DNA of 64,000 bases from Diplonema papillatum (lineage: Eukaryota; Euglenozoa; Diplonemea; Diplonemida; Diplonemidae). Within the stretch, counting starts at the first letter, position 1. Each line of letters starts with the position of its first letter. The stretch is taken from positions 1-64,000 of the forward strand of contig JAPJBO010000769.1 in assembly GCA_030068145.1 (NCBI GenBank), read 5' to 3'. Below are positions 8,040-32,300 of the stretch, one piece after another. The notes beneath the pieces were generated by a model that saw only the letters and a program-made list of their open reading frames with translations, was not told where the DNA came from and made no database searches. The translations under genes and the position numbers were made by a program.

Positions 8040-11000
8040 CGCCGGGCAACCAAATGACGCTGCGTTACTCCGTGCCACGTGCGCTCCCTCCGGTGAGCAA
8101 GCCCGACGCCCCTGTGCCTTCGCTGGAGGCGTTCGAGGGGGCACTGGCAGACGGGGACGTAGAGCTGGCTTGGGGTGAGCTTTCGGCGGCATGCGAGCAG
8201 CATCTCCTCGACAGGTGCGATGTGCCGGCGGCAAAGGCACGCCCGTATGTAGGCCGTGGCCTCGCGAGGGAGCCGAGGCGGGTCCGGGCGGTTGCCCGGA
8301 GCTGCCCGGGGAAGGGCGTTACGTGCGAGGCCGAGCTGAAATACGGCAAGGCCATCACACGGCTGATGCACTACGTGCACGCACGAAGCCGCCTGGAGGT
8401 GTCCGGGCCGTTCGTCGTGCCGCAGGATCTGCGCGCTTGTTGGGCGCGGTGCATCCCGGTGCTGACGTGTGAAGGGGAACCTCCGCCGCCGGCTGAACCT
8501 CCGCCTGCCGAGGCCGCCCGGGCTATGCTGCATCGAGTCAGAGCCCGGAGCGCCCAGCACAATGCGGCGGCCAGGCAGAGCCGCGAACGGCAAGCCCGCC
8601 AGGGGCTCCGAGAGAGGTATGCCACGGACCGCAGATCGCTGGTTTCCATGCTGAGGGGTGACACCAAGCCCTCGGCGGACACTCTCAGAGCTGATGGCGG
8701 CCGCCTTACGGCGAACCTCGACGAGATGGATGATGTCCTCCAGCAAGCTTGGGGCCCCATCCTGAGGCTGTACTCGCCGGAGACCCCCGAGCCCAGCTAC
8801 GACGACTTCGCCAAGGCCTTTGGGGAGCACGTCCAACACCGGCCGATGCAAGTCACCGACATCACTGGTGAGGAGCTGCGAACCATCCTTCGAGAGAGGA
8901 AGAAGAAGTCCTCGGCGTGCGGTGTGGACGGGTGGCGCATGGACGAGCTGAAAGCCCTGCCCGTCCCACTGATGGACGCCTTCGCCAGCTTCTTCAACCT
9001 GGTTGAAAAGGAGGGGCGGTGGCCAGAAGGGCTGCTGACGGCGTTGGTGTCGCTCATTCCAAAGAGCGAGGATCCATCGCCCACCAACATGCGGCCCATC
9101 ACGGTCACCAGCTGCGTGTACCGCCTTTGGGCGTGCCGCAGGCTGCGTGACATCATGGCGTGGCAGGAGGAGTGGGCGCTCCCCACCCAGCATGGCTTCC
9201 GGACGGGACACCGCTGCGACGACGCCCTCATGGAGATGGCGACGCTCGTCGAGGAGACGCTGCTCGACGAGACGAAGTCGCTCGTCGTCCTGGCCTTGGA
9301 CTTTGCCAAGTGCTTCGACAGGGTGCCGCAAGGGATTGTTCTGCGACTTGCGGAGGAGATGGGGCTGGACGCCCGCATCCACAAGCCGTTGCAGGCGATG
9401 TACCGCGGGCTGAAGCGGCGGTTCAAGCTGCCGCTAGGCGTTGGGGCCTACTTTGAGGTCACCAACGGCATCCTGCAGGGATGCCCGATCTCGGTCATCC
9501 TGATCAACGCGCTGTTGTCAGTGATGCTGAGGGCGGTGCCGGTGGCGTCGGAGTCGTACGCCGACGACGCCACACTGCACGCGTCCAACGAGCCCGCTGT
9601 GCAGAAGGCGGTCGACGTTGTGAGCCGGTTCTGCGACGTTACGGGCATGCGCCTGAACGTGAAGAAGACGGTAGCGCTCGGGATCCTCGAAGGCAAGACG
9701 CAGCAACGCATGCAGCGCCCCTACCGGTCCACGCTGCACATTGGCGAGGGCGACGGCAAGGAGGTCTTCCCCACCGTGTCGTCCACGAAGGTGCTGAGTG
9801 GCAGGTTGAACACCTCGACCAAGAGGTGCGACCGCACCAACGACGCACGGCTGGAGGCCCAGAGTGGGCTGATGGACGCGTTAGGTCTGTCGCCACTCCC
9901 CTTCGACGAGCGGTGCGAGATCGCGAGCTCCAGCACGCTGGGCAGCGCACTGTCTGGGTGTCAGTACACACCCTTCACGAAAGCGGGCCTGAAGAGTCTC
10001 CGCACGAGGATTGCGCGAGGGGTCTTTGGGCCGGTAAACAGGGGCACCTCCCGGAGCGTTTCTGCGGTGCTGACCGTCCTGGCGAAGGGCCACCGGGTCG
10101 ACCCCGTGCTGGCGCGCCCTTACTGGGTGCTATGCTCACTGCTGGACTCGTGCGAGCGGTTGCCGGGCGTGCGCGAACGCATGAAGCGCATCTGCCGGCT
10201 GTATGGCGAACGGGGCGGGATGCTCGGACGGGGTTTGGGTCCCGTCGGTATCGCGATCACCGACGGGCTCCCCCCGGTCGGGGCCGAATACGACGGGTTT
10301 GACCTCGGCACCATGAAAGTGCAAGGGCGGGTCCTGCTGGACATGCGACGGGCCGAGCGGCACCATGTGTTGCGGGGGCAGCTGCGACAGTCCGCCTGGA
10401 CGCAGCTTGCTGCGGAGCGCCCGTCCTTTGACGGGGTGCAGCACGGTGTAGACTACGTTCGCACCAACGAGGAACGCCGCCGAGCGACGGCGAGTGCTGC
10501 GCTGCGGAAGGCCCTCACGACCATCCTGGCCGGCGGCGTCTACTACGCAACGCGCTGGGGGCGCGGCGCCGGCAACGGAGACCGCCGGGGCGACTCCGGC
10601 GACGGCGGTGACGGTTCGGCCGCGTCCCCCGCCGCCTCCTCCTCCTCTGCTGAAGGGTCCTCCGGGCCCTCCTCCGGCGGCGAAGACGATCGGACCGCAT
10701 CAGCTGATGCTTTCGACGAGGTGACCTCGAGCAGCGAAAGCGCTCCCCGGGCCCGTGGCCGTGACTGCCCCGACTGCGAGCTGCGGGTCCCCGACACCGC
10801 GGAGCACCTGTGGTGGGCATGCCCCGCGTACGACAACATCCGGAGTATGGACTGCTTCGCGGCCCTCGTACGGGCTGACCGCTCGCGCTGGCCCTCCTGC
10901 ACCCGGGTGCACGGTGTCATCACCGTGGGACTGGATATTGATGCCACGGCCCTGCATCGCATGATGGGAACGATCCTTGCAGCCAGGACTGGGGCGAGCC

Positions 11001-12421
11001 TTGCGCGCTGGAAGTCCGCGCCGGTGACCCACGCCTGGGTGCTCGCCGCCTCCACACAGGCGACCGCCCACAGATTTCGGTACAACGACCTACCGGATGC
11101 GCCGCGGAAATGGAACTTTGGCGCCCCGATGATGCGCGCTCTGAAGGGCTGGTTGGCGGCGCTGCGGTGGACCACCTTTGAAGGGGTCTCCAATATCGAG
11201 CTCGCTCTGGACTTCGAGCTGTTCACAGGGATGGATGTCAAGCACTGCCCCAAGAGGCCGAAGGTTCAGCGCCCCGCTGGCCCCGTATCGGTGGCCGAAC
11301 GGGGTCAGCGGCTAGGAGCGATGCTCGCAGTGCTGTGCCGCCTGTGCGAGACTCTGAAGCTGCCCTCGCCGCTGCCGACGGCGAGACTGGAGAGGGTGAA
11401 GAGCCTCCACACGCTCGGTGTGCCGCGGGTGATTGGCGGGCTGCAAGTACGTCCCGTCTTCGCGGCGGGCGCGGAAACGGCGGCTGTCCTGGAGGCCTGT
11501 GCCACGCGTGCCCTGCCCGTCGGTGGGCTGACAAGCCAAGTGTGGGGTAGGGACGTGTTCCCGCAGTACGACTCGGCTCTACGCGCTGAGCGCGCTCAGC
11601 AGTGGGAGGTGCGGAGGCCGGTGCTGACACGCTCTGCGCACCCAGTGCTGGTGCCCGCGTCGCAGGCCATGACGCGAGGGCGTTTTCAGGTCTGCGACAA
11701 GTGCGCGAAGAAGAAGTGTCCGTTGTGCGCCTCGAGCTCACAGCGCACGCCGGAGCAGTGTTGCCGGGACCACCACGAGCCCGGTGACGGTGTCCTCACG
11801 CAATGCTGCGGAGCGCACCACCTGACGCGTTGCGGCGGCTGCGCCAATGCCTCCGTGTGCTGCCGGAGTGGCCACCACCGGGCGGGAGACCGGCCGGACG
11901 ACGCCGACGACGAGAACGAGGCACCTGCACCTCCGGCGGGACCTCAACCGGCACCGGCAGCGCCCCGACGCGGGCTCCGACGCAAACGCGGGGAGACGAG
12001 CGAGGAATCCTCCGGCTCCGGCCAGGGAGACTCACCAACGATCGATCGCGCTGCGCCGCTGCGGCGGCGTGCTGCGGAGGACCCTTCCGTCCCACGCACC
12101 CCCCCAGCGCGGCGGCGCCGACGCACTCAACTGCCAACGCCGCAACTCCGGGCCAACACCCCCGCCCGACGAACGCCGCCCAATGCGCAGCCCCCGGCTG
12201 CGTCCGTCCGACGCGCGAACCGACGCAAACGCGAAGAAACGAGCGAAGGGTCATCCAACGATGGCTCCGGCCGGGAGGCCACAATGACACCCACTCGTAG
12301 GCCGCCTCCGCGGCGACGTAACAGACGCGTTCCATCTGCTGTGACGTAGACACGGAGTGTGCATAGTGCGTTGCTCAGGGTAGTTGGAGGCCTGACAATC
12401 ACACTAATGCAACAAATTTAC
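8040..12421 (+). mobile_element. LINE-1 family, copy beta (5'-truncated, long open ORF)
   Basis: This non-LTR retrotransposon copy holds the reverse transcriptase and C-terminal regions but lacks the endonuclease domain that precedes them in the related LINE-2. Homology to LINE-2 begins at the linker just after its endonuclease (SVPRALPP against KVPREIPT). The 3' UTR is about 72 bp and ends in CAACAAATTTAC without poly(A). The 3' flank from 12422 is ankyrin-repeat coding DNA. The 5' flank is unrelated repeat DNA, so a target duplication cannot be seen; truncation with rearrangement is likely. Confidence 0.9.
8054..12349 (+). CDS. LINE-1 reverse transcriptase ORF, 1431 codons
   Basis: The ORF codes for the RNA-dependent DNA polymerase of a LINE, which copies element RNA into DNA at a nicked target. 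The N-terminal about 290 residues are a linker conserved with LINE-2. The reverse transcriptase spans about residues 285-560, with GVDGWRM, NGILQGCPISVILINAL and the catalytic SYADDA at about 500-505. A zinc-ribbon-like motif CPDC-x8-AEHLWWAC lies at about 905-925. Repeated Cys/His modules (CAKKKCPLC, CCRDHH, CCGAHH, CGGC, CCRSGHH) run from about 1215 to 1285, followed by a basic tail. No RNase H is recognised. No endonuclease is present because the copy is 5'-truncated. The ATG at 8054 is simply the first one in the remaining frame. The frame is intact, suggesting a young copy. Confidence 0.92.
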   Translation: MTLRYSVPRALPPVSKPDAPVPSLEAFEGALADGDVELAWGELSAACEQHLLDRCDVPAAKARPYVGRGLAREPRRVRAVARSCPGKGVTCEAELKYGKAITRLMHYVHARSRLEVSGPFVVPQDLRACWARCIPVLTCEGEPPPPAEPPPAEAARAMLHRVRARSAQHNAAARQSRERQARQGLRERYATDRRSLVSMLRGDTKPSADTLRADGGRLTANLDEMDDVLQQAWGPILRLYSPETPEPSYDDFAKAFGEHVQHRPMQVTDITGEELRTILRERKKKSSACGVDGWRMDELKALPVPLMDAFASFFNLVEKEGRWPEGLLTALVSLIPKSEDPSPTNMRPITVTSCVYRLWACRRLRDIMAWQEEWALPTQHGFRTGHRCDDALMEMATLVEETLLDETKSLVVLALDFAKCFDRVPQGIVLRLAEEMGLDARIHKPLQAMYRGLKRRFKLPLGVGAYFEVTNGILQGCPISVILINALLSVMLRAVPVASESYADDATLHASNEPAVQKAVDVVSRFCDVTGMRLNVKKTVALGILEGKTQQRMQRPYRSTLHIGEGDGKEVFPTVSSTKVLSGRLNTSTKRCDRTNDARLEAQSGLMDALGLSPLPFDERCEIASSSTLGSALSGCQYTPFTKAGLKSLRTRIARGVFGPVNRGTSRSVSAVLTVLAKGHRVDPVLARPYWVLCSLLDSCERLPGVRERMKRICRLYGERGGMLGRGLGPVGIAITDGLPPVGAEYDGFDLGTMKVQGRVLLDMRRAERHHVLRGQLRQSAWTQLAAERPSFDGVQHGVDYVRTNEERRRATASAALRKALTTILAGGVYYATRWGRGAGNGDRRGDSGDGGDGSAASPAASSSSAEGSSGPSSGGEDDRTASADAFDEVTSSSESAPRARGRDCPDCELRVPDTAEHLWWACPAYDNIRSMDCFAALVRADRSRWPSCTRVHGVITVGLDIDATALHRMMGTILAARTGASLARWKSAPVTHAWVLAASTQATAHRFRYNDLPDAPRKWNFGAPMMRALKGWLAALRWTTFEGVSNIELALDFELFTGMDVKHCPKRPKVQRPAGPVSVAERGQRLGAMLAVLCRLCETLKLPSPLPTARLERVKSLHTLGVPRVIGGLQVRPVFAAGAETAAVLEACATRALPVGGLTSQVWGRDVFPQYDSALRAERAQQWEVRRPVLTRSAHPVLVPASQAMTRGRFQVCDKCAKKKCPLCASSSQRTPEQCCRDHHEPGDGVLTQCCGAHHLTRCGGCANASVCCRSGHHRAGDRPDDADDENEAPAPPAGPQPAPAAPRRGLRRKRGETSEESSGSGQGDSPTIDRAAPLRRRAAEDPSVPRTPPARRRRRTQLPTPQLRANTPARRTPPNAQPPAASVRRANRRKREETSEGSSNDGSGREATMTPTRRPPPRRRNRRVPSAVT

Positions 12422-17300: not shown

Positions 17301-20300
17301 GGTGGGCGGTCTCCTGTATTCTCGGCGGTTCGGGTGTTGTGGCTGGCTCCGAACCAAGCTACTGGCGCGGACTTCCAGCGCGCAAGCCTCGCTTCAGTCC
17401 TGACCGCAAGGATCTCCTCAAGCATTTCCTACAAAGCAGGTGCTTATACAAAAGAAATTACCACCTACAGCCCCTTCACGTGCCTTGCAAGTAATTGTTG
17501 GTCGGAACACAATTGGTGGACAAGTCTGGTGCCAACACCCGCGGTAATTCCAGCACCAACAGCGTACATTGATGCTGCAGCTGTTGAAAAGCACGTAGTT
17601 GGATCCAGAGCTCAGGTTGCAAGGCGGCCCAGTTTGCTGGGGGCACCAGCCCCCATTTATTTTGTATGAGCACCTGCTTTGTAGGAAATGCTTGAGGAGG
17701 CTGCCAGTTACGAAGTCTCGAAGTGGTGCATCGTGTGGTATTCATCATGCCGGGGACTCCCCACTATCGCAACAGTATTCCAAATATCAAGAAGGTAAAC
17801 GTGCTCTAGCCCACACGAAACACAGGTAAATCTGGGGTTTAGGCCGGTGTAAGCGCTGTAGCTGATCGTGGTCACAAACCACCGGTGAAGCTTAGCGAGG
17901 CTGTGCTGAGGGCCGTGTTATGCGCAAGTAGTTGGGTAAAAGCAAACTTTTACTCTTAAAAGAGTTTCTCGACACCCCTAAGCAAGGTACGGCTACGGAA
18001 GAACTACAGATAGCTGGGGATCAATCAGGGCTTACGCAGCTCTTTTGTCTTGGAGCTGAATACCTACTGAAAGTCAGTACGTAGGGTCAGGCAAAAAAAA
18101 CGAACAGAGCACAGGGGGCACCTGCCAGTGTTGCCTGGCTTTGCCTCTGCCTCCTCTCCGGCCTCAGCCCTCCAGTGGCGCAGTGGTAAGCAACAGCAGG
18201 ATCTGCCGACCGGAATCCCCGGTACTGCGGTTGATTCCCCAGATGAATCTGCAGAAAAAAAAAAAAGATAGTACGTGCTGATAACGTACTGATTTCAGCA
18301 TGTGTACAACAAAGAAACTAAGAAAATTAACGTGCTGAAATCAGTACGTTCAGCATGCTGAACGTAAGGCCTGAGTACTCCTTCCGAGTTTGTCATTGCT
18401 TGCTACAACGAAAATGATTGTCCTTCGGGATCGACGGTAACACAAATTTGCAGGTCGGCCTCGGTGCTGGCCACGACGGAGTGCGACCTGTGGGTGATCG
18501 ACAAGCACGTGGTGGACGGCATTCTGCCGACGCTGCAGCCTTCGGTGCGCCGGTACCTCCGGGAGGTCGCGGACAGCAGGAGGACGGCCATTCTCGCTCG
18601 CATCTACCCCCTTTCCGCCGACATGCTCCGGCAGGGCAACGCGATCTTCGACTGCTGGGACCAGGACACCCTCCTCTCGCTGTGCAGCAAGTTCGAGGCC
18701 CGCGTCGTGCAAGCGGGGACCGTGCTGGTGTCGCAAGGGGGCGGGGGCGATTACTTCTTCTTCGTCGCCAACGGCGTCGTGTCCATCCGCGTGAAGAAAC
18801 AAGTCGAGCCCATAGCCGTAGGCTCGCCCGCATCACCAAAGGGCAGCGATCGTCGTATGCTTCCTTTTTTTTGTTGCATAAGAACCTGCTTTGTAGGAAA
18901 TGCTTGAGGAGACTGCCAGTTGCGACAATAAAACCTCGGAGGGAAAAAGACTGCGTGTTTATCCCACTCAATAAAAAAAGCACAGAGTGTACAGACTAAA
19001 CCGTGCGAAGTGTTTAGGCAGCAAAACACAAATGGGGATGGCGGAACGGGAGCAGAACACCGTAGGTAGAGTACGAAACCTTGAGGGACTAGTCATCTGC
19101 ATCCTTTTTTCACTGCGCACCCCGTTATTCGTCTCCGTAGGAAATACTTGACGAGACTACCAGTTGCAAAAGATCAAAGGAGGTAAATATGCAGTAAAGT
19201 GGTACTCATCGGCATGCCGATGACTCCCCACTATCGCAACAATATTCCAAGACCAAAGGAGGTAAATGTGCTGTAGCCCACACGAAACACAAGTAAATCT
19301 GGGTTTAGTGGCGGGCGTAAGCGTTCAACAAAAAAGACCCACTTTGTAGTTGTATTGTTTTCTCCCCCTCTAGCCTCCTTCGAAATGAGCACAAGGCAGT
19401 CCCTCGAGTATTTTACTACCTACCTCCCCCCGTGTATAAGATCGGGGTTTTTGAGAAATGAGGGCGATCTTATACACGGGGGAAAATGTTTCATGGGTTT
19501 GAAGAGCGCGTGGTGCTTGCACCACTGAGGCCAGGTTATTTAACCGCGGATTTAGTGAAGGATTGTTCAGGAAACGGTCGCGAGCGAAACCCGAAAAGGC
19601 AACGACCATTTCACTGTCTTCTTTGTTTTGTGATGCGAACATCACGAGGTGCTGTCCGAAGACACCGCCCACGTGAGCACTGTTAAGCATTGAGTTCTTT
19701 TAAGTACATGAACCACATGGATTAGCATGCACTGCCTTGAAAGTCAGGTTATCGGATGACGTCGTCACCTGCCATTGCGTCGTCAAGGTCGAGCATTTGT
19801 GGAGCTAGCGGGGTTTGGCTTTCTTGCGATTCCAGAGACTGAGTCGGCGAGTACGAGGGCGGGCACGTGTGTCCGTTTTTCACTTTCGAGGGCATTGGTG
19901 TGCCCGTGGTCCCCGGTCGTTTCTGAGAGCTGCTTGCCCTCGGTACCTTCTTCTTCCTTCGATGCACCCCTGAGTCGGGGGTGGTCGCCTTCGTCTTCTT
20001 CCGCTTGCGGCCGGCGATCGGGCCTTCCTTCGGGGTGCCTAGCACCCTCTTCTTCAGCGCTGGTCGTTCGCTGGTTCCTGGCGTTGGTGGCGGCCTCTTG
20101 GTCGCCCGTCCGGTCGTCGCCGTCTCCTTTTTCGTTGCCGCGGGCGGCGCTTGCGCCGCTCGCTTTCCTACTGGCGTTCCCCGTTGTACGCCCACCTGGG
20201 TGGGTGAGGAGGGCCTCTTCTTCTTGTTGCGTCCGGGGGTTGACGGGACGTTCGGTTCGTTGGACTGGTGGTGGCCGCGGCGGCAACATGCCGCCGGTCG

Positions 20301-23300
20301 CCTCTGCGTCAGCGTAGGGAGCCTCTTGCACTCTTGGCAGGTTCCTCTGCCATGCGTGCGGCAGGCATGATGCCCGCTGCGGCAACACGCCGCCGCCGTC
20401 TTGCACTCGCCGCACTTCGTCGTGCTGTGCTCTGTGCACACCGCGATCGGCTGCCCATCGTTCGCGTGGTGATGGTGCCGGCAGCACATCTCTACCGTGG
20501 GAACGTCCCTTCGGACGAGTGCTCTGCACGCCTCACACTTCCCTTTGTGATGGGTCGCGCACGTGACGAGTGCCTTCTCTATATCGACACCCGGCATATG
20601 CACGGGGTCTGGGTGCAGTTGTGGTGGGGCAGGCAGGGCCCACCTCGCCGCTCTCCCGATCGTCCAGTCAGGGTACGTCGGGCACTGCGTCCCTACATCG
20701 CTTCCTTTCACTTGTTCCTCAAGTATCGTCCCCGTGTGTGCCTCGCGAAAGCGTGGCCTGGGCCGTACACCCGATATCCCCGAGATGCCCATGAACGACA
20801 GCGACGTCGTCGGGCACACCCTCTCCCCTCTCATGCAGCTTCCCAGCCCTTGCTGTGCCGCCAGCTTGTCCAACGCGCTCATCATGCAGCGCAGGACGTT
20901 TCCCCGTTCTCTCACCCCCTTCGGCGCATTCCCGTGCAGCGGCATGCTGAGGCCCGAGAAGAGTTCAAAGTCGATCGCAAGCTCTAGCATTGACGCCTGC
21001 CCGCTCTCGGTCCACTGCATGTCAGACAGCCACGCTACCAACGCATAAAACGTCGGTAGTCCCCAGGTCTTGTTTCGCTCCCACGTCCATGCCGGGGCAA
21101 TCCGCGCAAAGGGGTGGTCAAATTTCTCGGCAGGCATCGCATCCGCTCTCGACCAGGGGGTCGTGGGGTTCCTGGCTACCCAGCCACGTGCTTCGAGCCC
21201 TGCACGTTCCGCAAGGATTTCAGCCATCATCTCCTGGAGCCGCCTCGATAAGTGGGCGTTCCCCGGTACAACCACACCATGTTCCAGCGTGCATCGGGGC
21301 CACTCGGTTCGGTTGGCCGCCATCAGCCCGGCGTGTGCTTCCCGCCGGCGAATGTGTGAGTATGCGTCGCAGTCCCAGTAGATATGCTGTTCGTTCTCCG
21401 TCACGCCGCTCCCACAGTGCTTGCAGCTGGGCGCCTGCGGCTCAGCTCCAGCCTGCCTCATCCGCGACGTGAACTCCGCCGTGTTCACACCCCCCGCAAT
21501 CGCAACTCGAATTAGCTTCGCCGTGTGCGCGGAACATTCCCTCGTCTTCCAGAACGCATTCGTGCGCTCCAAGTCGGCTCTTTCCAGCCCCTGATATCCT
21601 GGCCTTCTCGCCATCAGTCGGGCCCACGTCCTCGTTCTCAGGTCCGCCCTCACTTCGTGCCCCCTCTTCGAGGGCGACGAGGCCAGCGGGTCGAACACTG
21701 CACCATTCCGTCGTAGCGTGCGAGATAGGGGCCCAGGCTCCCATATGTGTCCACACTCCTCCATGCTCCTCATCGCCAGCCCGACTGGGCCGAGGGGTTG
21801 GTCCCCCTCGGCGTACCGCCCCCGGATACTCTCCATCAGAGGTAGCAGTCGCGGCAGCCTCTCGCACGCCGCGTAGAACGCCGTCGTCACCCGGTACGCT
21901 AAACACGTACCGGGGTCCGTCAGGTGGCCCTTCTCCTGGAAGTTCAGGACCATTTCTCTCGCGCGCTTCGGGTTTGCTCCACCCCAGATCAGACCCATCA
22001 CCGACGTCGTCAACCGCTTCATCGCCACCTTTGACACCGGCGCGAAGGAGCAGCCCGATAGCGCTGCCGGCAACACATTCGACTGCACAATACGGACCCG
22101 CTTTTCGTACCGGAATGGCGCGTGGCGGAGGCCCTCCGCTAGGGCCGCCGCCCTCTCTACCCTCTTAGAGTCGGACCTCTCCTTTCTGTTCTTCGCCGTT
22201 GAGACTAGGGCCCCCAGACACGTGACGGACTTGCTAAATCGCAGCAGCGCATTTCCGCTTCGGAGTCTGAGCGTCGACTGGTGCCTCTGCCTCGTCGAGA
22301 ATGCGATGGTCTTCTCGAGGTTTAGCTGCATTCCGGTGAGTGTGCAGAACTCGTCAACAATGTCGACTCCCTTTTGCAGTGCGGCCTCCGACAGCCTGGA
22401 CAGTAGTGTGGCATCATCCGCGTACGACTTAGGACTCACACCCTCAGCTTCTTTTTTGACCGCTTTCATCACTACCGACAGCAGGGCATTGATGAGTATG
22501 ACGGACACAGGGCACCCTTGAAGGATACCGTTGGTCACACTAAACTCCCTGCCCACCCCTAGCGGCAACTTGAAGCGTCTTGCGAGCAGACTGTAAATCG
22601 CCCTCAGCGGCTTGAGAACCCGACCGTGCAGTCCTAAGTCCTCAGCCAGGCGTAGCACTACCTCTCGCGGGACCATGTCGAAACACTTCCGGAAGTCCAG
22701 CGCCACTCCGTAGAGCGGCTCTCCGTCCAGCAAGGCGTCCTCCACCTCGAGCCCTATCTCCATCAAGACGTCCTCGATCCGGTGGCCCGGCCGAAAGCCT
22801 TTCTGTCCTTCTTCGATCCACCCCTCCTGCCACAGGACAATGTCCGCAAGCCTGCGGCAGGCCCACAAGCGGTACACGGCGGACGTGACGGTTATCGGCC
22901 TCGTGTGCAGCGGGTCTTGGCTCTCATCTTTCGGCACCATCGACACCAGCGCAGTTGTCATGCTTGCCGGCCAGTCCCCAGTCGCTTCGACCAGGTTCAT
23001 GACGTCTGCAAGTGCATTCAGCAGGGGGAGCGGCAACTCCCGCAGTTCAGCCATGCGCCAGCCATCCACCCCTGACGCGCTTTTCTTCGGCTTCTTCCTC
23101 AGCAGAATTCGCAGCTCCTCCCCCGTGATTGTTCCGGCTTCCATCAAGTGTGGGCCGATGTGATCCTGGAACCGATCCCGAAACGGCTCGTACTCCGGCT
23201 CTGGCCCGTCCTTGTACTTACGCAGGATAGGGTCCCACGCAGTGTTCAGCGCCTCGTCCATCTCGTCAACATTTGCAGTCACTCCCGCCCCCGTTCGCAA

Positions 23301-26300
23301 CACCCCCGACGGCTCAGCGCGTCCGGCGCAGATGGTTGTCAGACATCGTCTGCTCGCATCGGCCCTCTCGTTCAGCTTGTCTCGGTACTTCGTAAACCTG
23401 GCCGCCGATCCTTCCCTTCCGAGCCTACTCGTCTCTTCCCGCAATGCCGTGAGAAGCTGCTTCGCCTCCTCATGATCCGGGAATCCTTCTGTCCCTTGGC
23501 CACCTTTCATGCACGCCTGTGCCAGCCGTCTGCTGTTCTGCCAGCAACGGGATACTTCATGCGGAACTGCCTCCGGCCCGCGTCGCTGCGCAAGGTAGCT
23601 GCAGATGCGTTCCATCCTGTGGATGGCCTTCCGGAGCCGTAGCTGTCTGCTGTTCGCCGCCCCCGACCCGTCGCTCGCAGTGCTTGCCGTGATACAGACT
23701 CTCTTAGGCGACGTCTTTATCCCCCGGCCGGTACTCCTTCCCCTTTCTTCCGCAGGGATTCCGAAGGCATCCTGCAAGTACTGCTCACTGACTCGTGACC
23801 ACTCGAGCCAGGCCTCTTCCACTCGCTGTGCTGCCAGCCGTTCTGCGAAATCGGAGTTGGTCAGTCTCTGTACGGCTTCCCTGTTAGCTTCTGTGTCCGA
23901 GAGGCCCCACTTGGGTCCCCCCTCGGTAGGGATTTCCCGCGGTACTTTAAATCGCCACACGATTTGGCGCAGCGCCGCAATGTCCAGGGTCATTGTCACG
24001 AGCCGGTGTCCCGGTACGTTCACCGCGGTGGTGACGCATTGACGGAAAGCTCCCGTCGTTATTCGGTTGAGGAGTATGCGGTCGATCCTCGTGCCTGTCG
24101 TCCGGGCGCTGGTAAAGGTCGGTGGTGGCGGTGTGTCACCGGTACGCGCATGGTGCAGTTCCGCTGCGTCGGACCATCCGTTCCTTAGTGCCTTCCGCAG
24201 CACAGGGGACCGGTCTTCTTCCGTGTTCAGGTCACCCATCACCATTATGGGGACGTCACCGAGGCTATCTGCCGCTGCGAAGAGGATCTTCTCCAGCATG
24301 TCCTCACGCTCCTCGCTCTCCGCCCTCCCGTTTCCGGAAGGGCAGTAGACATTGAACACGTGCACGAACGTGTTGCCGGCCCCTGTTGCTACTACCGTAT
24401 GGCTCACTCGGTCCGGGGACCGTATTGCTGCGTGCGAGAGCGCCGTCATCGTATCGTACGCAGGTATCGGTCTCAGTACTAGAGTGGAGAGCCCCCCGTT
24501 CGCGGCGTTCACCGTCGAGCGACTACCGGAGTTTCTACAGAGTCTTCCGGGAGGCGGCAGGCCCCAGTGGCAGCACCATTTCCGCAGGTATTCCTCCGCC
24601 TGCGCCCGTTTGCACGGAAGGAGTGTCACCTCCTGGCAGCAGAGAAGATCCGCTTCCACCGCGTCGGCCGCTGGGAGATATTGAAGTAAGCTAGTTACGT
24701 TCAACGTCGCGAACTTCATCTCCGTGCGGCCGGGGCCCGGGTTCTGTTCGATGTCTCCAGCGCTTAACAGCTGCTGTCTAGTAGTTTCCTTAATAGATAT
24801 AAGAGTTCTTTGGCGATTACACAAGTCAGTACGTGGCGCGGGGCTGAACTGTTGCTGGGGGGGTGGGGAGGACGCCTGAGGGCGGGGCGGGGGGGGCATG
24901 GGGGGAGTTTCTTGCGGGGTGTCCCGGCCTTGCAAACGTTGGGAGGCGGCCTCGCGCACGGCCCTGTAGGTGAGCGAGACCCGGTCGCGTGCGACATCAT
25001 CGGGACGAATCCCGTGTGTCCACAGGCTCCTGGCCTCGCCTTCCATGTGGCACAGTGTGCCGACCGGCAGGGGGGTTCTCACTCTCCGGCTCCCCCTCTC
25101 CCACTCCATGACCGTGTCGCTCAAGAGCGATATGGTCGCTACCCTCGGACCCAGTTCTCTCTGGTCTTTGTGGGGGTTGATCCCCACTCCCCTCCGGTAC
25201 CAGTTGGCCAGCAACTGGTCCGGTTCCCACCCGAGACGGTCACGTATGAGATCCGCCGCTTCTTTCAGGGGCCCCTCGGGGATACCCCGTTCCAGTCTGA
25301 CCGGGGGTCCGCCCTGTCGGTAGGCGTGTCCCCACTGCTGGGTCTCTCTGCTTTGTTCTCCCCCCAGCCTCCTCCAAGTGGCTTTCGGCCCAAGCTCGGG
25401 TACTCGGCTCAGTCTGTCCAGAAGATCCCGAGGGATCGTCTGGAAGCTTAGTCCGGGGATTGCTCCCTCCACCCTGACAGGGCCCCCCCCGCAGGCACGC
25501 TGGCCTTTGTGGGGGGATTGTTTGTGCGCTGCGGGTAAATTTCCCGGGCTAATGAGGCCTGGCGCATTGTGGGAGAGAGGGGGGCAAAAAGAAGAAGAAG
25601 AAGAAGAGGGATCGCCACCACCTTCGCCTGCTCCATCGTCGAACTGCGTGCTGGGACTCACGCGCTGGGCGGCCTGCACCGGCCTGGCGGGGCCACAACT
25701 GGCGCCGGGGACGGGTCGCGGTTTTGCCGTGTCCGAAGTCTCCCTCTCACCAGCGAAAGAAGCAAACAAGCCAGAGCCTCTCCTTGCGCGCCATTCCGAC
25801 ACTCCAATCCCTCTTGGGTTTGGGCAAGAAGGTGATCCGCAATCACGTTCAGAAGCCCAGGTGGCGTTTGCATCAGCTCCTCCACTCTTCAGCGCTGGTC
25901 GTTCGCTGGTTCCTGGCGTTGGTGGCGGCCTCTTGGTCGCCCGTCCGGTCGTCGCCGTCTCCTTTTTCGTTGCCGCGAGCGGCGCTCGCGCCGCTCGCTT
26001 TCCTACTGGCGTTTCCCGTTGTACGTCCACCTGGGTGGGTGAGGAGGGCCTCTTCTTGTTGCGTCCGGGGGTTGACTGGACGTTCGGCTTGTTGGACTGG
26101 TGGTGGCCGCGGCTGCAACATGCCGCCGGTCGCCTCTGCGTCAGCGTAGGGAGCCTTTTGCACTCTTGGCAGGTTCCTCTGCCATGCGTGCGGCAGGCAT
26201 GATGCCCGCTGCGGCAACACGCCGCCGCCGTCTTGCACTCGCCGCACTTCGTCGTGCTGTGCTCTGTGCACACCGCGATCGGCTGCCCATCGTTCGCGTG

Positions 26301-29300
26301 GTGATGGTGCCGGCAGCACATCTCTACCGTGGGAACGTCCCTTCGGACGAGTGCTCTGCACGCCTCACACTTCCCTTTGTGATGGGTCGCGCACGTGACG
26401 AGTGCCTTCTCTATACCGACACCCGGCATATGCACGGGGTCTGGGTGCAGTTGTGGTGGGGCAGGCAGGGCCCACCTCGCCGCTCTCCCGATCGTCCAGT
26501 CAGGGTACGCCGGGCACTGCGTCCCTACATCGCTTCCTTTCACTTGTTCCTCAAGTATCGTCCCCGTGTGTGCCTCGCGAAAGCGTGGCCTGGGCCGTAT
26601 ACCCGATATCCCCGAGATGCCCATGAACGACAGCGACGTCGTCGGGCACACCCTCTCCCCTCTCATGCAGCTTCCCAGCCCTTGCTGTGCCGCCAGCTTG
26701 TCCAACGCGCTCATCATGCAGCGCAGGACGTTTCCCCGTTCTCTCACCCCCTTCGGCGCATTCCCGTGCAGCGGCATGCTGAGGCCCGAGAAGAGTTCAA
26801 AGTCGATCGCAAGCTCTAGCATTGACGCCTGCCCGCTCTCGGTCCACTGCATGTCAGACAGCCACGCTACCAACGCATAAAACGTCGGTAGTCCCCAGGT
26901 CTTGTTTCGCTCCCACGTCCATGCCGGGGCAATCCGCGCAAAGGGGTGGTCAAATTTCTCGGCAGGCATCGCATCCGCTCTCGACCAGGGGGTCGTGGGG
27001 TTCCTGGCTACCCAGCCACGTGCTTCGAGCCCTGCCCGTTCCGCAAGGATTTCAGCCATCATCTCCTGGAGCCGCCTCGATAAGTGGGCGTTCTCCGGTA
27101 CAACCACACCATGTTCCAGCGTGCATCGGGGCCACTCGGTTCGGTTGGCCGCCATCAGCCCGGCGTGTGCTTCCCGCCGGCGAATGTGTGAGTATGCGTC
27201 GCAGTCCCAGTAGATATGCTGTTCGTTCTCCGTCACGCCGCTCCCACAGTGCTTGCAGCTGGGCGCCTGCGGCTCAGCTCCGGCCTGCCTCATCCGCGAC
27301 GTGAACTCCGCCGTGTTCACACCCCCCGCAATCGCGACTCGAATTAGCTTCGCCGTGTGCGCGGAACATTCCCTCGTCTTCCAGAACGCATTCGTGCGCT
27401 CCAAGTCGGCTCTTTCCAGCCCCTGATATCCTGGCCTTCTCGCCATCAGTCGGGCCCACGTCCTCGTTCTCAGGTCCGCCCTCACTTCGTGCCCCCTCTT
27501 CGAGGGCGACGAGGCCAGCGGGTCGAACACTGCACCATTCCGTCGTAGCGTGCGAGATAGGGGCCCAGGTTCCCATATGTGTCCACACTCCTCCATGCTC
27601 CTCATCGCCAGCCCGACTGGGCCGAGGGGTTGGTCCCCCTCGGCGTACCGCCCCCGGATACTCTCCATCAGAGGTAGCAGTCGCGGCAGCCTCTCGCACG
27701 CCGCGTAGAACGCCGTCGTCACCCGGTACGCTAAACACGTACCGGGGTCCGTCAGGTGGCCCTTCTCCTGGAAGTTCAGGACCATTTCTCTCGCGCGCTT
27801 CGGGTTTGCTCCACCCCAGATCAGACCCATCACCGACGTCGTCAACCGCTTCATCGCCACCTTCGACACCGGCGCGAAGGAGCAGCCTGATAGCGCTGCC
27901 GGCAACACATTCGACTGCACAATACGGACCCGCTTTTCGTACCGGAACGGCGCGTGGCGGAGGCCTTCCGCTAGGGCCGCCGCCCTCTCTACCCTCTTAG
28001 AGTCGGACCTCTCCTTTCTGTTCTTCGCCGTTGAGACTAGGGCCCCCAGACACGTGACGGACTTGCTAAATCGAAGCAGCGCATTTCCGCTTCGGAGTCT
28101 GAGCGTCGACTGGTGCCTCTGCCTCGTCGAGAATGCGATGGTCTTCTCGAGGTTTAGCTGCATTCCGGTGAGTGTGCAGAACTCGTCAACAATGTCGACT
28201 CCCTTTTGCAATGCGGCCTCTGACAGCCTGGACAGTAGTGTGGCATCATCCGCGTACGACTTAGGACTCACACCCTCAGCTTCTTTCTTGACCGTACCGA
28301 CTGTAGGGCATTGATGAGTATGACGGACAAAGGGCACCCTTGAAGGATCCCGTTGGTCACACTAAACTCCCTGCCCACCCCTAGCGGCAACTTGAAGCGT
28401 CTCGCGAGCAGGCTGTAAATCGCCCTCAGCGGCTTGAGAACCCGACCGTGCAGTCCTAAGTCCTCAGCCAAGCGTAGCACTACCTCTCGCGGGACCATGT
28501 CGAAACACTTCCGGAAGTCCAGCGCCACTCCGTAGAGCGGCTCTCCGTCCAGCAAGGCGTCCTCCACCTCGAGCCCTATCTCCATCAAGACGTCCTCGAT
28601 CCGGTGGCCCGGCCGAAAGCCTTTCTGTCCTTCTTCGATCCACCCCTCGAATGACATACCACGTGCTCGAAAGACATGGAGGGAATGCAAAATGAATCGG
28701 TCATGTGCCAATGAAAATGCAAAAGTCAATACCGTTCCTCTCCCATGGACTCGTTCCAGATCCGAGTTAGCATACTCGTATGCGCTCGATCAAATGTTCA
28801 AGGTAATCGGGAACAACCTGCCACAGGACAATGTCCGCAAGCCTGCGGCAGGCCCACAAGCGGTACACGGCGGATGTGACGGTTATCGGCCTCGTGTGCA
28901 GCGGGTCTTGGCTCTCATCTTTCGGCACCATCGACACCAGCGCAGTTGTCATGCTTGCCGGCCAGTCCCCAGTCGCTTCGACCAGGTTCATGACGTCTGC
29001 AAGTGCATTCAGCAGGGGGAGCGGCAACTCCCGCAGTTCAGCCATACGCCAGCCATCCACCCCTGACGCGCTTTTCTTCGGCTTCTTCCTCAGCAGAATT
29101 CGCAGCTCCTCCCCCGTGATTGTTCCGGCTTCCATCAAGTGTGGGCCGATGTGATCCTGGAACCGATCCCGAAACGGCTCGTACTCCGGCTCTGGCCCGT
29201 CCTTGTACTTACGCAGGATAGGGTCCCACGCAGTGTTCAGCGCCTCGTCCATCTCGTCAACATTTGCAGTCACTCCCGCCCCCGTTCGCAACACCCCCGA

Positions 29301-32300
29301 CGGCTCAGCGCGTCCGGCGCAGATGGTTGTCAGACATCGTCTGCTCGCATCGGCCCTCTCGTTCAGCTTGTCTCGGTACTTCGTAAACCTGGCCGCCGAT
29401 CCTTCCCTTCCGAGCCTACTCGTCTCTTCCCGCAATGCCGTGAGAAGCTGCTTCGCCTCCTCATGATCCGGGAATCCTTCTGTCCCTTGGCCACCTTTCA
29501 TGCACGCCTGTGCCAGCCGTCTGCTGTTCTGCCAGCAACGGGATACTTCATGCGGAACTGCCTCCGGCCCGCGTCGCTGCGCAAGGTAGCTGCAGATGCG
29601 TTCCATCCTGTGGATGGCCTTCCGGAGCCGTAGCTGTCTGCTGTTCGCCGCCCCCGACCCGTCGCTCGCAGTGCTTGCCGTGATACAGACTCTCTTAGGC
29701 GACGTCTTTATCCCCCGGCCGGTACTCCTTCCCCTTTCTTCCGCAGGGATTCCGAAGGCATCCTGCAAGTACTGCTCACTGACTCGTGACCACTCGAGCC
29801 AGGCCTCTTCCACTCGCTGTGCTGCCAGCCGTTCTGCGAAATCGGAGTTGGTCAGTCTCTGTACGGCTTCCCTGTTAGCTTCTGTGTCCGAGAGGCCCCA
29901 CTTGGGTCCCCCCTCGGTAGGGATTTCCCGCGGTACTTTAAATCGCCACACGATTTGGCGCAGCGCCGCAATGTCCAGGGTCATTGTCACGAGCCGGTGT
30001 CCCGGTACGTTCACCGCGGTGGTGACGCATTGACGGAAAGCTCCCGTCGTTATTCGGTTGAGGAGTATGCGGTCGATCCTCGTGCCTGTCGTCCGGGCGC
30101 TGGTAAAGGTCGGTGGTGGCGGTGTGTCACCGGTACGCGCATGGTGCAGTTCCGCTGCGTCGGACCATCCGTTCCTTAGTGCCTTCCGCAGCACAGGGGA
30201 CCGGTCTTCTTCCGTGTTCAGGTCACCCATCACCATTATGGGGACGTCACCGAGGCTATCTGCCGCTGCGAAGAGGATCTTCTCCAGCATGTCCTCACGC
30301 TCCTCGCTCTCCGCCCTCCCGTTTCCGGAAGGGCAGTAGACATTGAACACGTGCACGAACGTGTTGCCGGCCCCTGTTGCTACTACCGTATGGCTCACTC
30401 GGTCCGGGGACCGTATTGCTGCGTGCGAGAGCGCCGTCATCGTATCGTACGCAGGTATCGGTCTCAGTACTAGAGTGGAGAGCCCCCCGTTCGCGGCGTT
30501 CACCGTCGAGCGACTACCGGAGTTTCTACAGAGTCTTCCGGGAGGCGGCAGGCCCCAGTGGCAGCACCATTTCCGCAGGTATTCCTCCGCCTGCGCCCGT
30601 TTGCACGGAAGGAGTGTCACCTCCTGGCAGCAGAGAAGATCCGCTTCCACCGCGTCGGCCGCTGGGAGATATTGAAGTAAGCTAGTTACGTTCAACGTCG
30701 CGAACTTCATCTCCGTGCGGCCGGGGCCCGGGTTCTGTTCGATGTCTCCAGCGCTTAACAGCTGCTGTCTAGTAGTTTCCTTAATAGATATAAGAGTTCT
30801 TTGGCGATTACACAAGTCAGTACGTGGCGCGGGGCTGAACTGTTGCTGGGGGGGTGGGGAGGACGCCTGAGGGCGGGGCGGGGGGGGCATGGGGGGAGTT
30901 TCTTGCGGGGTGTCCCGGCCTTGCAAACGTTGGGAGGCGGCCTCGCGCACGGCCCTGTAGGTGAGCGAGACCCGGTCGCGTGCGACATCATCGGGACGAA
31001 TCCCGTGTGTCCACAGGCTCCTGGCCTCGCCTTCCATGTGGCACAGTGTGCCGACCGGCAGGGGGGTTCTCACTCTCCGGCTCCCCCTCTCCCACTCCAT
31101 GACCGTGTCGCTCAAGAGCGATATGGTCGCTACCCTCGGACCCAGTTCTCTCTGGTCTTTGTGGGGGTTGATCCCCACTCCCCTCCGGTACCAGTTGGCC
31201 AGCAACTGGTCCGGTTCCCACCCGAGACGGTCACGTATGAGATCCGCCGCTTCTTTCAGGGGCCCCTCGGGGATACCCCGTTCCAGTCTGACCGGGGGTC
31301 CGCCCTGTCGGTAGGCGTGTCCCCACTGCTGGGTCTCTCTGCTTTGTTCTCCCCCCAGCCTCCTCCAAGTGGCTTTCGGCCCAAGCTCGGGTACTCGGCT
31401 CAGTCTGTCCAGAAGATCCCGAGGGATCGTCTGGAAGCTTAGTCCGGGGATTGCTCCCTCCACCCTGACAGGGCCCCCCCCGCAGGCACGCTGGCCTTTG
31501 TGGGGGGATTGTTTGTGCGCTGCGGGTAAATTTCCCGGGCTAATGAGGCCTGGCGCATTGTGGGAGAGAGGGGGGCAAAAAGAAGAAGAAGAAGAAGAGG
31601 GATCGCCACCACCTTCGCCTGCTCCATCGTCGAACTGCGTGCTGGGACTCACGCGCTGGGCGGCCTGCACCGGCCTGGCGGGGCCACAACTGGCGCCGGG
31701 GACGGGTCGCGGTTTTGCCGTGTCCGAAGTCTCCCTCTCACCAGCGAAAGAAGCAAACAAGCCAGAGCCTCTCCTTGCGCGCCATTCCGACACTCCAATC
31801 CCTCTTGGGTTTGGGCAAGAAGGTGATCCGCAATCACGTTCAGAAGCCCAGGTGGCGTTTGCATCAGCTCCTCTACTCCTGGGAGAAACCGGAAGCTGTC
31901 CGGAGATGGTACCTGCATTCCAACTCGTCCTCTTGGGAAAGGCCAGTCGACGGCTGTATGCAAGTGGGCGGGGGTCTTGGGACTGTGAAGGCGTGACTAC
32001 CCCACAAGAAGGACTCGCTGTCTCTCTGTTCTGCCCCTGCCGCCATAGCCATCTTATCCTCGGCCAAGCACCAGTTTCTTCTCCTGCAACGCAACCTTGC
32101 CTTCGGCATGGCCATTATGACTGCCATTCTGGTTATCAACCTTACTCCTCGCGCGGGTTGCCGTCTTCGACCGCGACCGCCCAATACAAATAATCTGTGG
32201 CGATTTGCGGTGTCGCGGGTATCTCTTAGTACGTGATGTGTCATGCTTTCGCCTCTTTAGCTCGACTTGATCGTCGCGCTCAAGCGCGCGTTTGGTGCCT

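Follow-up and report, generated by a model that had tools for sequence, protein, structure and literature searches.

Why would a retrotransposon carry an AlkB-like dioxygenase in front of its endonuclease? The question is raised by a stretch of 64,000 nucleotides from Diplonema papillatum (assembly GCA_030068145.1, contig JAPJBO010000769.1, positions 1 to 64,000; hereafter the window), in which the minus strand from 31878 to about 19690 holds two head-to-tail partial copies of the same long interspersed nuclear element (LINE). An initial annotation, made from the letters of the window, had placed an AlkB-like domain upstream of the apurinic/apyrimidinic endonuclease (APE) in both copies, in frame with it and with the reverse transcriptase (RT), and had suggested that the element may repair or edit methyl marks carried by its own RNA or by target DNA. 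Judged by its sequence, the domain belongs to the AlkB family of 2-oxoglutarate- and Fe(II)-dependent (2OG-Fe(II)) dioxygenases and is predicted to be catalytic. It is under purifying selection, and one AlkB cassette seems to have been exchanged among three classes of mobile element, APE-type LINEs, R2-like LINEs and Helitron-like elements. Overall, the earlier reading is partly supported, and the role which it proposed appears reasonable.

The AlkB domain and its carriers

The domain comprises 172 amino acids at 24951..25466 (-) in copy 1 and lies at 30942..31457 (-) in copy 2, and the motifs NPHKDQRELGP, WTHGI and RVSLTYR, from which it had been recognized, are present in both places. The Pfam profile PF13532 (2OG-FeII_Oxy_2) scored 47.2 and 46.3 bits in the two window reading frames against a cut-off of 31.2, far beyond chance (E 1.5e-13 for the copy 1 domain alone and 3.9e-12 for copy 2), and matched all eight element AlkBs tested at E≤0.01. 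In comparisons of profiles with the PDB the copy 1 domain matched ALKBH8, a tRNA enzyme, at 5.1e-10. The profile of eight element AlkBs also gave ALKBH8 as its top match (9e-17), followed by S. pombe P8A3.02c, presumably Ofd2 (1.8e-9), the 6mA demethylase NMAD-1 (1.3e-7) and then ALKBH6, ALKBH3, ALKBH2 and ALKBH5; this ranking names no substrate. The signature of AlkB enzymes consists of HxD, a distal His, Arg-x5-Arg and Asn-x-Tyr. HxD..H..Rx5R was kept in all 43 extracted LINE and R2-like domains, which represent 37 distinct places, and in both Helitron-like AlkBs, and N88, Y90, H99, D101, H151, R162 and R168 were invariant in an alignment of 11 rows. The predicted structure had a mean pLDDT of 66, and this model is too weak to judge the jelly roll, or double-stranded beta-helix.

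A search of the genome, in which 150 of 308 candidates were scored, found the AlkB domain at 86–100% identity in 150/150 loci, and no stop interrupts it in any of them; this and all other copy counts are lower bounds and come from one genome. The identities cluster around 99–100, 93–95 and 86–87%, and we named these groups A (that of the window), C and E, respectively. A further family, F (L015, L020–L022), carries the AlkB and the second open reading frame (ORF2) of group C on a different ORF1. For detailed study we picked 20 copies with long open frames, one stretch each, a set which is uninformative on the share of dead copies, and all 20 had WTHGI and NPGP in a single ORF2 of 1987–2046 codons. 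Families and ORF1s recur among the loci, which are not independent, and the trees described below are small. One predicted protein, P0003 (DIPPA_14024), ends in a piece 97% identical to the LINE AlkB, and reflects either exonisation of an element or an error in the gene model.

Selection on the domain was estimated as the ratio of nonsynonymous to synonymous divergence (dN/dS) by NG86. The AlkB region gave 0.18–0.27 in six of seven pairs; the pair L016–L015 gave 1.18 on nine changes. For the 172-codon domain the ratio was 0.15–0.23 between LINE families and 0.25–0.31 against the R2-like element, with 0.151 for the A–E pair (Fisher p 8e-13; A–C 2e-5; A against the R2-like element 2e-8). APE gave 0.07–0.17 (0.34 for L016–L015), RT 0.06–0.10, the 2A stretch 0.17–0.41 where defined and the Cys/His tail 0.05–0.56, and the linkers gave 0.52–0.85 (N-terminal) and 0.51–0.73 (Pro-rich, one pair undefined). 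The comparison of copies that had been recommended together with the first reading thus came out in its favour: between families the segment is not decaying neutrally.

Is the domain confined to this LINE? When the AlkB of the Diplonema protein P0004 was used as a genome query, 23 rows at 80–100% identity ranked above the LINE rows. At C6:2094-14357 (L041, L042) we found an R2-like element with a frame of 4088 codons that contains AlkB, RVT_1 (2.6e-21) and a UCH deubiquitinase (6.8e-8), together with an OTU match below cut-off and zinc-finger-like motifs; the class was assigned by eye from the layout of these two loci, and one such element was read whole. P0004 and P0006, both named tRNA (carboxymethyluridine(34)-5-O)-methyltransferase, appear to come from an R2-like element, the lengths of their contigs (100100 and 37156) being identical to those of C845 and C1585, and this bears on annotation, since a tRNA-methyltransferase name has been given to AlkBs that are apparently element-borne. 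Several R2-like copies are situated close to the end of a contig, toward which their 3' side points, and are perhaps telomeric or broken assembly arrays. A scan of the genome with PF13532, in which 150 of 250 candidates were scored and all 150 exceeded the cut-off, also showed AlkB in frames of 1767–3249 codons. Two of the ORFs found, L056 (C166:25894; 2986 codons) and L055 (C1735:10668; 3249 codons), have AlkB at their start followed by Helitron_like_N (Rep), at E 5e-38 in L056 and at 3e-5, below cut-off in a partial stretch, in L055; we call them Helitron-like for the Rep domain alone. Places scoring equally to these two are found on C65, C249 and C930 (two).

The AlkBs of the LINE and the R2-like element are 76–79% identical, and either is 43–50% identical to those of the Helitron-like ORFs. 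Against six other AlkB loci (C232, C1171, C216, C40, C129 and C341) the identity was at most 34%, and three of these had no match at E 1e-3; the six belong to 19 places not assigned to an element, and a nearer host gene may lie among the other 13. In the AlkB tree the LINE and R2-like rows formed a group (92/93) with the LINE nested in the R2-like rows (92/92), and the Helitron-like rows took no settled place. The synonymous divergence (dS) between LINE and R2-like AlkBs (0.44–0.55) resembles that between LINE groups A/C and E (0.42–0.43), which suggests an exchange of about that age.

The ORF1 stop and the 2A-like motif

How would the domain be expressed? In the fuller elements the order is ORF1, UGA-CUN, AlkB, 2A, APE and RT, all in a single frame. 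The initial annotation was right about AlkB, APE and RT and about AlkB lying upstream of APE, and it missed ORF1 and the 2A-like peptide. ORF1 has a Cys-rich C-terminal part where it was read, its extra 5' part having been read for two AlkB copies only, and ends at a single TGA. The stop is TGA-CTN in all 20 copies (CTG 10, CTA 6, CTC 4). A query across the ORF1 stop yielded 150 scored matches of 367 candidates, 131 of which reach the stop position and 19 do not; exactly one stop, a TGA, was present in 124 of the 131. Five matches, all of family F, have no stop at this position because their stop sits further upstream, as in L015, L020 and L021. C825 shows three stops, two of them TGA and one TAA, and at C2630:7600-7720 (L064) a copy of the AlkB LINE has a GPAS repeat in place of the end of ORF1 and the TGA. 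The single TGA is kept even between ORF1s that are about 25% identical. From the TGA to the HxD motif 16 of the 20 copies contain no Met, so in most copies AlkB is hardly made from an AUG of its own; the other four have a Met before HxD, at position 17 (L009, L012) or 32 (L025, L026). Short frames of 276 amino acids that run from the last part of ORF1 through the TGA into ORF2 also occur four times on C1063 and five times on C1128, at 88% identity.

UGA is known to be leaky when the next base is C, most of all in UGA CUA (PMC4359377, PMC12233894, PMC11166343); the last of these papers defines Type II readthrough of viral stop codons as UGA with a 3' CGG or CUA. The Diplonema LINE resembles the Type II cases in its UGA with CUA, its in-frame extension and the lack of a conserved AUG. 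It differs from them in being a retrotransposon and in using CUG and CUC too, CUA being found in only six of the 20 AlkB copies, and by eye we saw no common stem-loop near the stop. Directly before APE, all 20 fetched copies read GD(I/V)EQNPGPG, which agrees with the 2A (StopGo) core D-x-E-x-NPGP. Readthrough of the UGA would thus yield ORF1-AlkB, which the 2A would separate from APE-RT. It follows that the claim of AlkB being in frame with APE and RT stands for the reading frame (APE in both window copies, RT in copy 1), whereas at the level of protein the 2A-like peptide should split AlkB from APE-RT, and fusion to ORF1 is more likely.

Six loci of the same genome (L045–L050) have ORF1, TGA-CTN (6/6), one or two NPGP motifs and APE, and no AlkB. 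ORF1 is broken in L047 and L046, and L047 has one intact NPGP. The GDVHPNPGP of L045–L048 deviates from the 2A core at E. In L045, L046 and L048 two such motifs stand 84–112 residues apart and could release a small extra peptide. The sequence upstream of the LINE in L045 (positions 1–400) resembles a piece of 28S rRNA by eye; about 3600 pieces of this kind are noted in the genome paper (PMC10161547). The ORF1s fall into two sets, A with C and E with F, that are 24–33% identical to each other, yet the ORF2s of these families are 83–93% identical. The ORF1 of L050 is that of L015 and L022 (100% over 368 and 372 residues), and its ORF2 start matches L022 and diverges where the linker toward AlkB begins. 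By this pattern, ORF1s of different kinds have been combined with AlkB-ORF2.

In an RT tree of 29 rows the five AlkB rows formed one clade (100/100), with P0012 and P0034 as its sister at 90/83, in a bootstrap that had not settled; P0012 is of the L049 type and lacks AlkB. Most simply, AlkB would have been gained once. Relatives without the segment, which had been named as a finding that would tell against a functional domain, do exist and weigh against it to that extent, but they lie outside the AlkB clade. Two relatives from other sources carry an OTU domain before APE (P0026, E 4e-10; P0040, E 1.6e-4, below cut-off). A distant LINE-like protein of 2523 amino acids, P0055, has PF12237 besides RT, RNase H and APE; we take PF12237 to be PCIF1, the m6Am writer family, and P0055 is possibly another case of an RNA-methyl enzyme on a LINE.

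Possible role of the domain

What could the AlkB do for the element? We picture that most ribosomes would end at the UGA and give the ORF1 protein, and a minority would read through UGA-CUN and give ORF1-AlkB. At the 2A the ribosome would skip a bond and continue, so that APE-RT would be made as a separate protein. AlkB would then be produced in a fixed ratio with RT and be tethered via ORF1 to the RNA-protein particle of the element, whose own RNA it would most likely demethylate, removing either lesions that block reverse transcription or silencing marks of the m6A type. We infer readthrough, 2A activity, catalysis, RNA binding by ORF1 and, above all, the substrate, and we lean slightly towards the scheme as a whole, with its AlkB cassette between the ORF1 stop and the 2A. 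As to the substrate, our best guess puts the element's own RNA first and DNA second. Readthrough would attach AlkB to ORF1 and couple its supply to that of RT, and this speaks for activity inside the particle of the element; the Helitron-like relatives speak for a mark that DNA elements and RNA elements have in common.

Could AlkB instead strip a host silencing methyl mark from DNA, so that any class of element carrying it is expressed? Genes for DNA methyltransferase and for AlkB-type proteins have been described in this genome (PMC10161547), which would suit such a role. The element profile also matches the DNA demethylase NMAD-1, and the classes that share one AlkB lineage have DNA in common and not an RNA replication step. 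Helitrons replicate without one. However, all three classes depend on mRNA, and a mark on RNA would therefore be compatible as well. The profile matches a tRNA enzyme best, and a fusion to ORF1 points to a particle containing RNA; we regard action on DNA as unlikely on the whole, and still worth serious attention. Alternatively, the domain may have no base substrate and hydroxylate a protein (ORF1, a histone or a translation factor) or serve as a binding scaffold. Some members of the AlkB family appear to have roles other than base repair, and P8A3.02c was the second-best match, but the residues for metal and 2OG are conserved in 37/37 distinct places and in both Helitron-like AlkBs, against a pure scaffold role, and we hold this account to be improbable.

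The other two accounts concern how AlkB is made and whether it matters. ORF1 and ORF2 may be linked by restart after termination, a non-AUG start or splicing, with AlkB not fused to ORF1: some LINEs use termination-reinitiation, a Met precedes AlkB in four of 20 copies, and ORF1 is entirely missing from the window copies. The shared frame, the TGA-CTN in 26/26 loci read and the lack of a conserved AUG speak against this account, and we doubt that the linkage is of this kind. Could AlkB be a passenger, a decayed fragment of a host gene? Mobile elements commonly capture pieces of host genes, and the pair L016–L015, alone, gave a ratio above one. This is nevertheless very improbable in view of the purifying selection between families, the open domain at every scored locus and the presence in three classes of element.

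No AlkB-bearing LINE or Helitron turned up in the titles and abstract openings, mostly of open-access papers, that we searched; the nearest case is found in orchids of the genus Phalaenopsis, whose Ty3/Gypsy elements include a 2-ODD/AlkB ORF with RNA binding and m6A demethylase activity shown in vitro (PMC9289625). These too are retrotransposons bearing an AlkB domain, but they are long terminal repeat (LTR) elements of one orchid genus with an additional, ALKBH5-like ORF, whereas in Diplonema the carriers are a LINE, an R2-like LINE and Helitron-like ORFs, the nearest solved chain is ALKBH8, and AlkB is preceded in the LINE by a UGA-CUN stop and followed by a 2A motif. L1Tc is an APE-type non-LTR element with a 2A peptide, and Odon et al. 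reportedly described 2A peptides in such elements in 2013. They share with the Diplonema LINE the 2A motif directly before APE-RT, and we know of no AlkB among them; in Diplonema the slot before the 2A follows a stop of the leaky type and is occupied by AlkB, in relatives by other sequence. In the relative P0026, with its OTU domain before APE, we saw no NPGP. Some plant RNA viruses carry AlkB domains and are likewise replicating RNA parasites, albeit viruses; two peptide patterns found no relative of the LINE AlkB in IMG/VR. TET/JBP-type dioxygenases, another family, associate with fungal DNA transposons and offer a further case of a 2OG dioxygenase tied to mobile DNA.

In the genome paper, a dozen AlkB-type genes are read as an indication that D. 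papillatum regulates its genes by methylation and demethylation (PMC10161547). Part of this AlkB set rides on mobile elements, a point absent from the passage concerned. Perhaps an AlkB eraser cassette circulates among APE-LINEs, R2-like LINEs and Helitrons and gives all of them the same counter-defence, directed at a methyl mark that the host places on mobile DNA or on the RNA transcribed from it, with the LINE delivering the cassette to its own particle by UGA readthrough and 2A; we offer this tentatively and would give it somewhat less than an even chance. If true, eukaryotic mobile elements would use dioxygenases as erasers, akin to the anti-defence genes of phages, and a single module would be traded across RNA- and DNA-based elements. 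The LINE expression scheme of readthrough and 2A would parallel retroviral Gag-Pol, and a methyl mark restraining mobile DNA would be predicted in diplonemids, which are among the most abundant marine microeukaryotes according to the same paper (PMC10161547). Gene replacement has been achieved in D. papillatum (PMC10161547) and makes it an organism where the idea can be tested.

The window copies and their surroundings

Copy 1, at 19690..25722 (-) in its element-homologous part, is 5'-truncated and consists of an ORF2 (AlkB-2A-APE-RT-Cys/His) and a short 3' untranslated region (UTR). Its 3' end is approximate and based on the end motif CTCAATGC, present in 21/21 copies inspected (L009–L028 and window copy 1), and its 5' limit is derived from the start of L011 homology at 31713 in copy 2, minus an offset of 5991 bp. 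Copy 2 (25888..31713, minus strand) is 3'-truncated at the start of copy 1, and its RT is interrupted by an insertion of 168 bp at 28649..28816 (-), as seen from copy-to-copy alignment and translation. The translations place the 2A-like peptide, GDIEQNPGPG in copy 1, at 24729..24758 (-) and 30720..30749 (-). The Pfam matches to APE (Exo_endo_phos) lie at 24063..24704 (-) in copy 1 (E 2.3e-8, P0002 residues 1220-1433) and 30054..30695 (-) in copy 2 (E 5.6e-9, P0001 residues 474-687), that to RT (RVT_1) at 22296..22910 (-) in copy 1 (E 4e-24, P0002 residues 1818-2022), and the Cys/His-rich C-terminal region of copy 1, recognized by eye in the translation, at 20054..20561 (-). APE and RT sharing one ORF and the short 3' UTR agree with an APE-type LINE. 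In the ingi clade an RNase H domain follows RT (PMC12278014). Pfam at E≤1 found no RNase H domain, the mark of that clade (L1Tc, Tbingi), in the full ORF2.

Both window copies start 5 nt past the position of the ORF1 stop and lack ORF1. In its place each has a foreign 5' segment of about 168 bp (copy 2: 31711..31878; copy 1: 25720-25887; minus strand), which the genome search identified as a dispersed repeat, scored at 40 places including these two among 518 candidates. The ORF2 of copy 1 is open, and its frame is continuous with the tail of copy 2, giving a frame of 2870 codons. The domain is present in both copies, as first described, but they are 99.90% identical over 3062 bp (98.4% over 2776 bp), so they are not independent evidence and were counted once. 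The sequence ACGTGGG occurs 12–13 nt past CTCAATGC in 19 of the 21 copies (flanks of L009–L028; window 19674), and by this the LINE looks site-specific; a similar sequence without insert is found at window 32602. Elsewhere in the window, a 5'-truncated LINE of the AlkB-less sister family (that of L045) lies at 8054..12349 (+), its RT 56% identical to that of copy 1, and positions 1512-4379 hold the frame of an ankyrin-repeat protein (Ank_2, E 5e-244).

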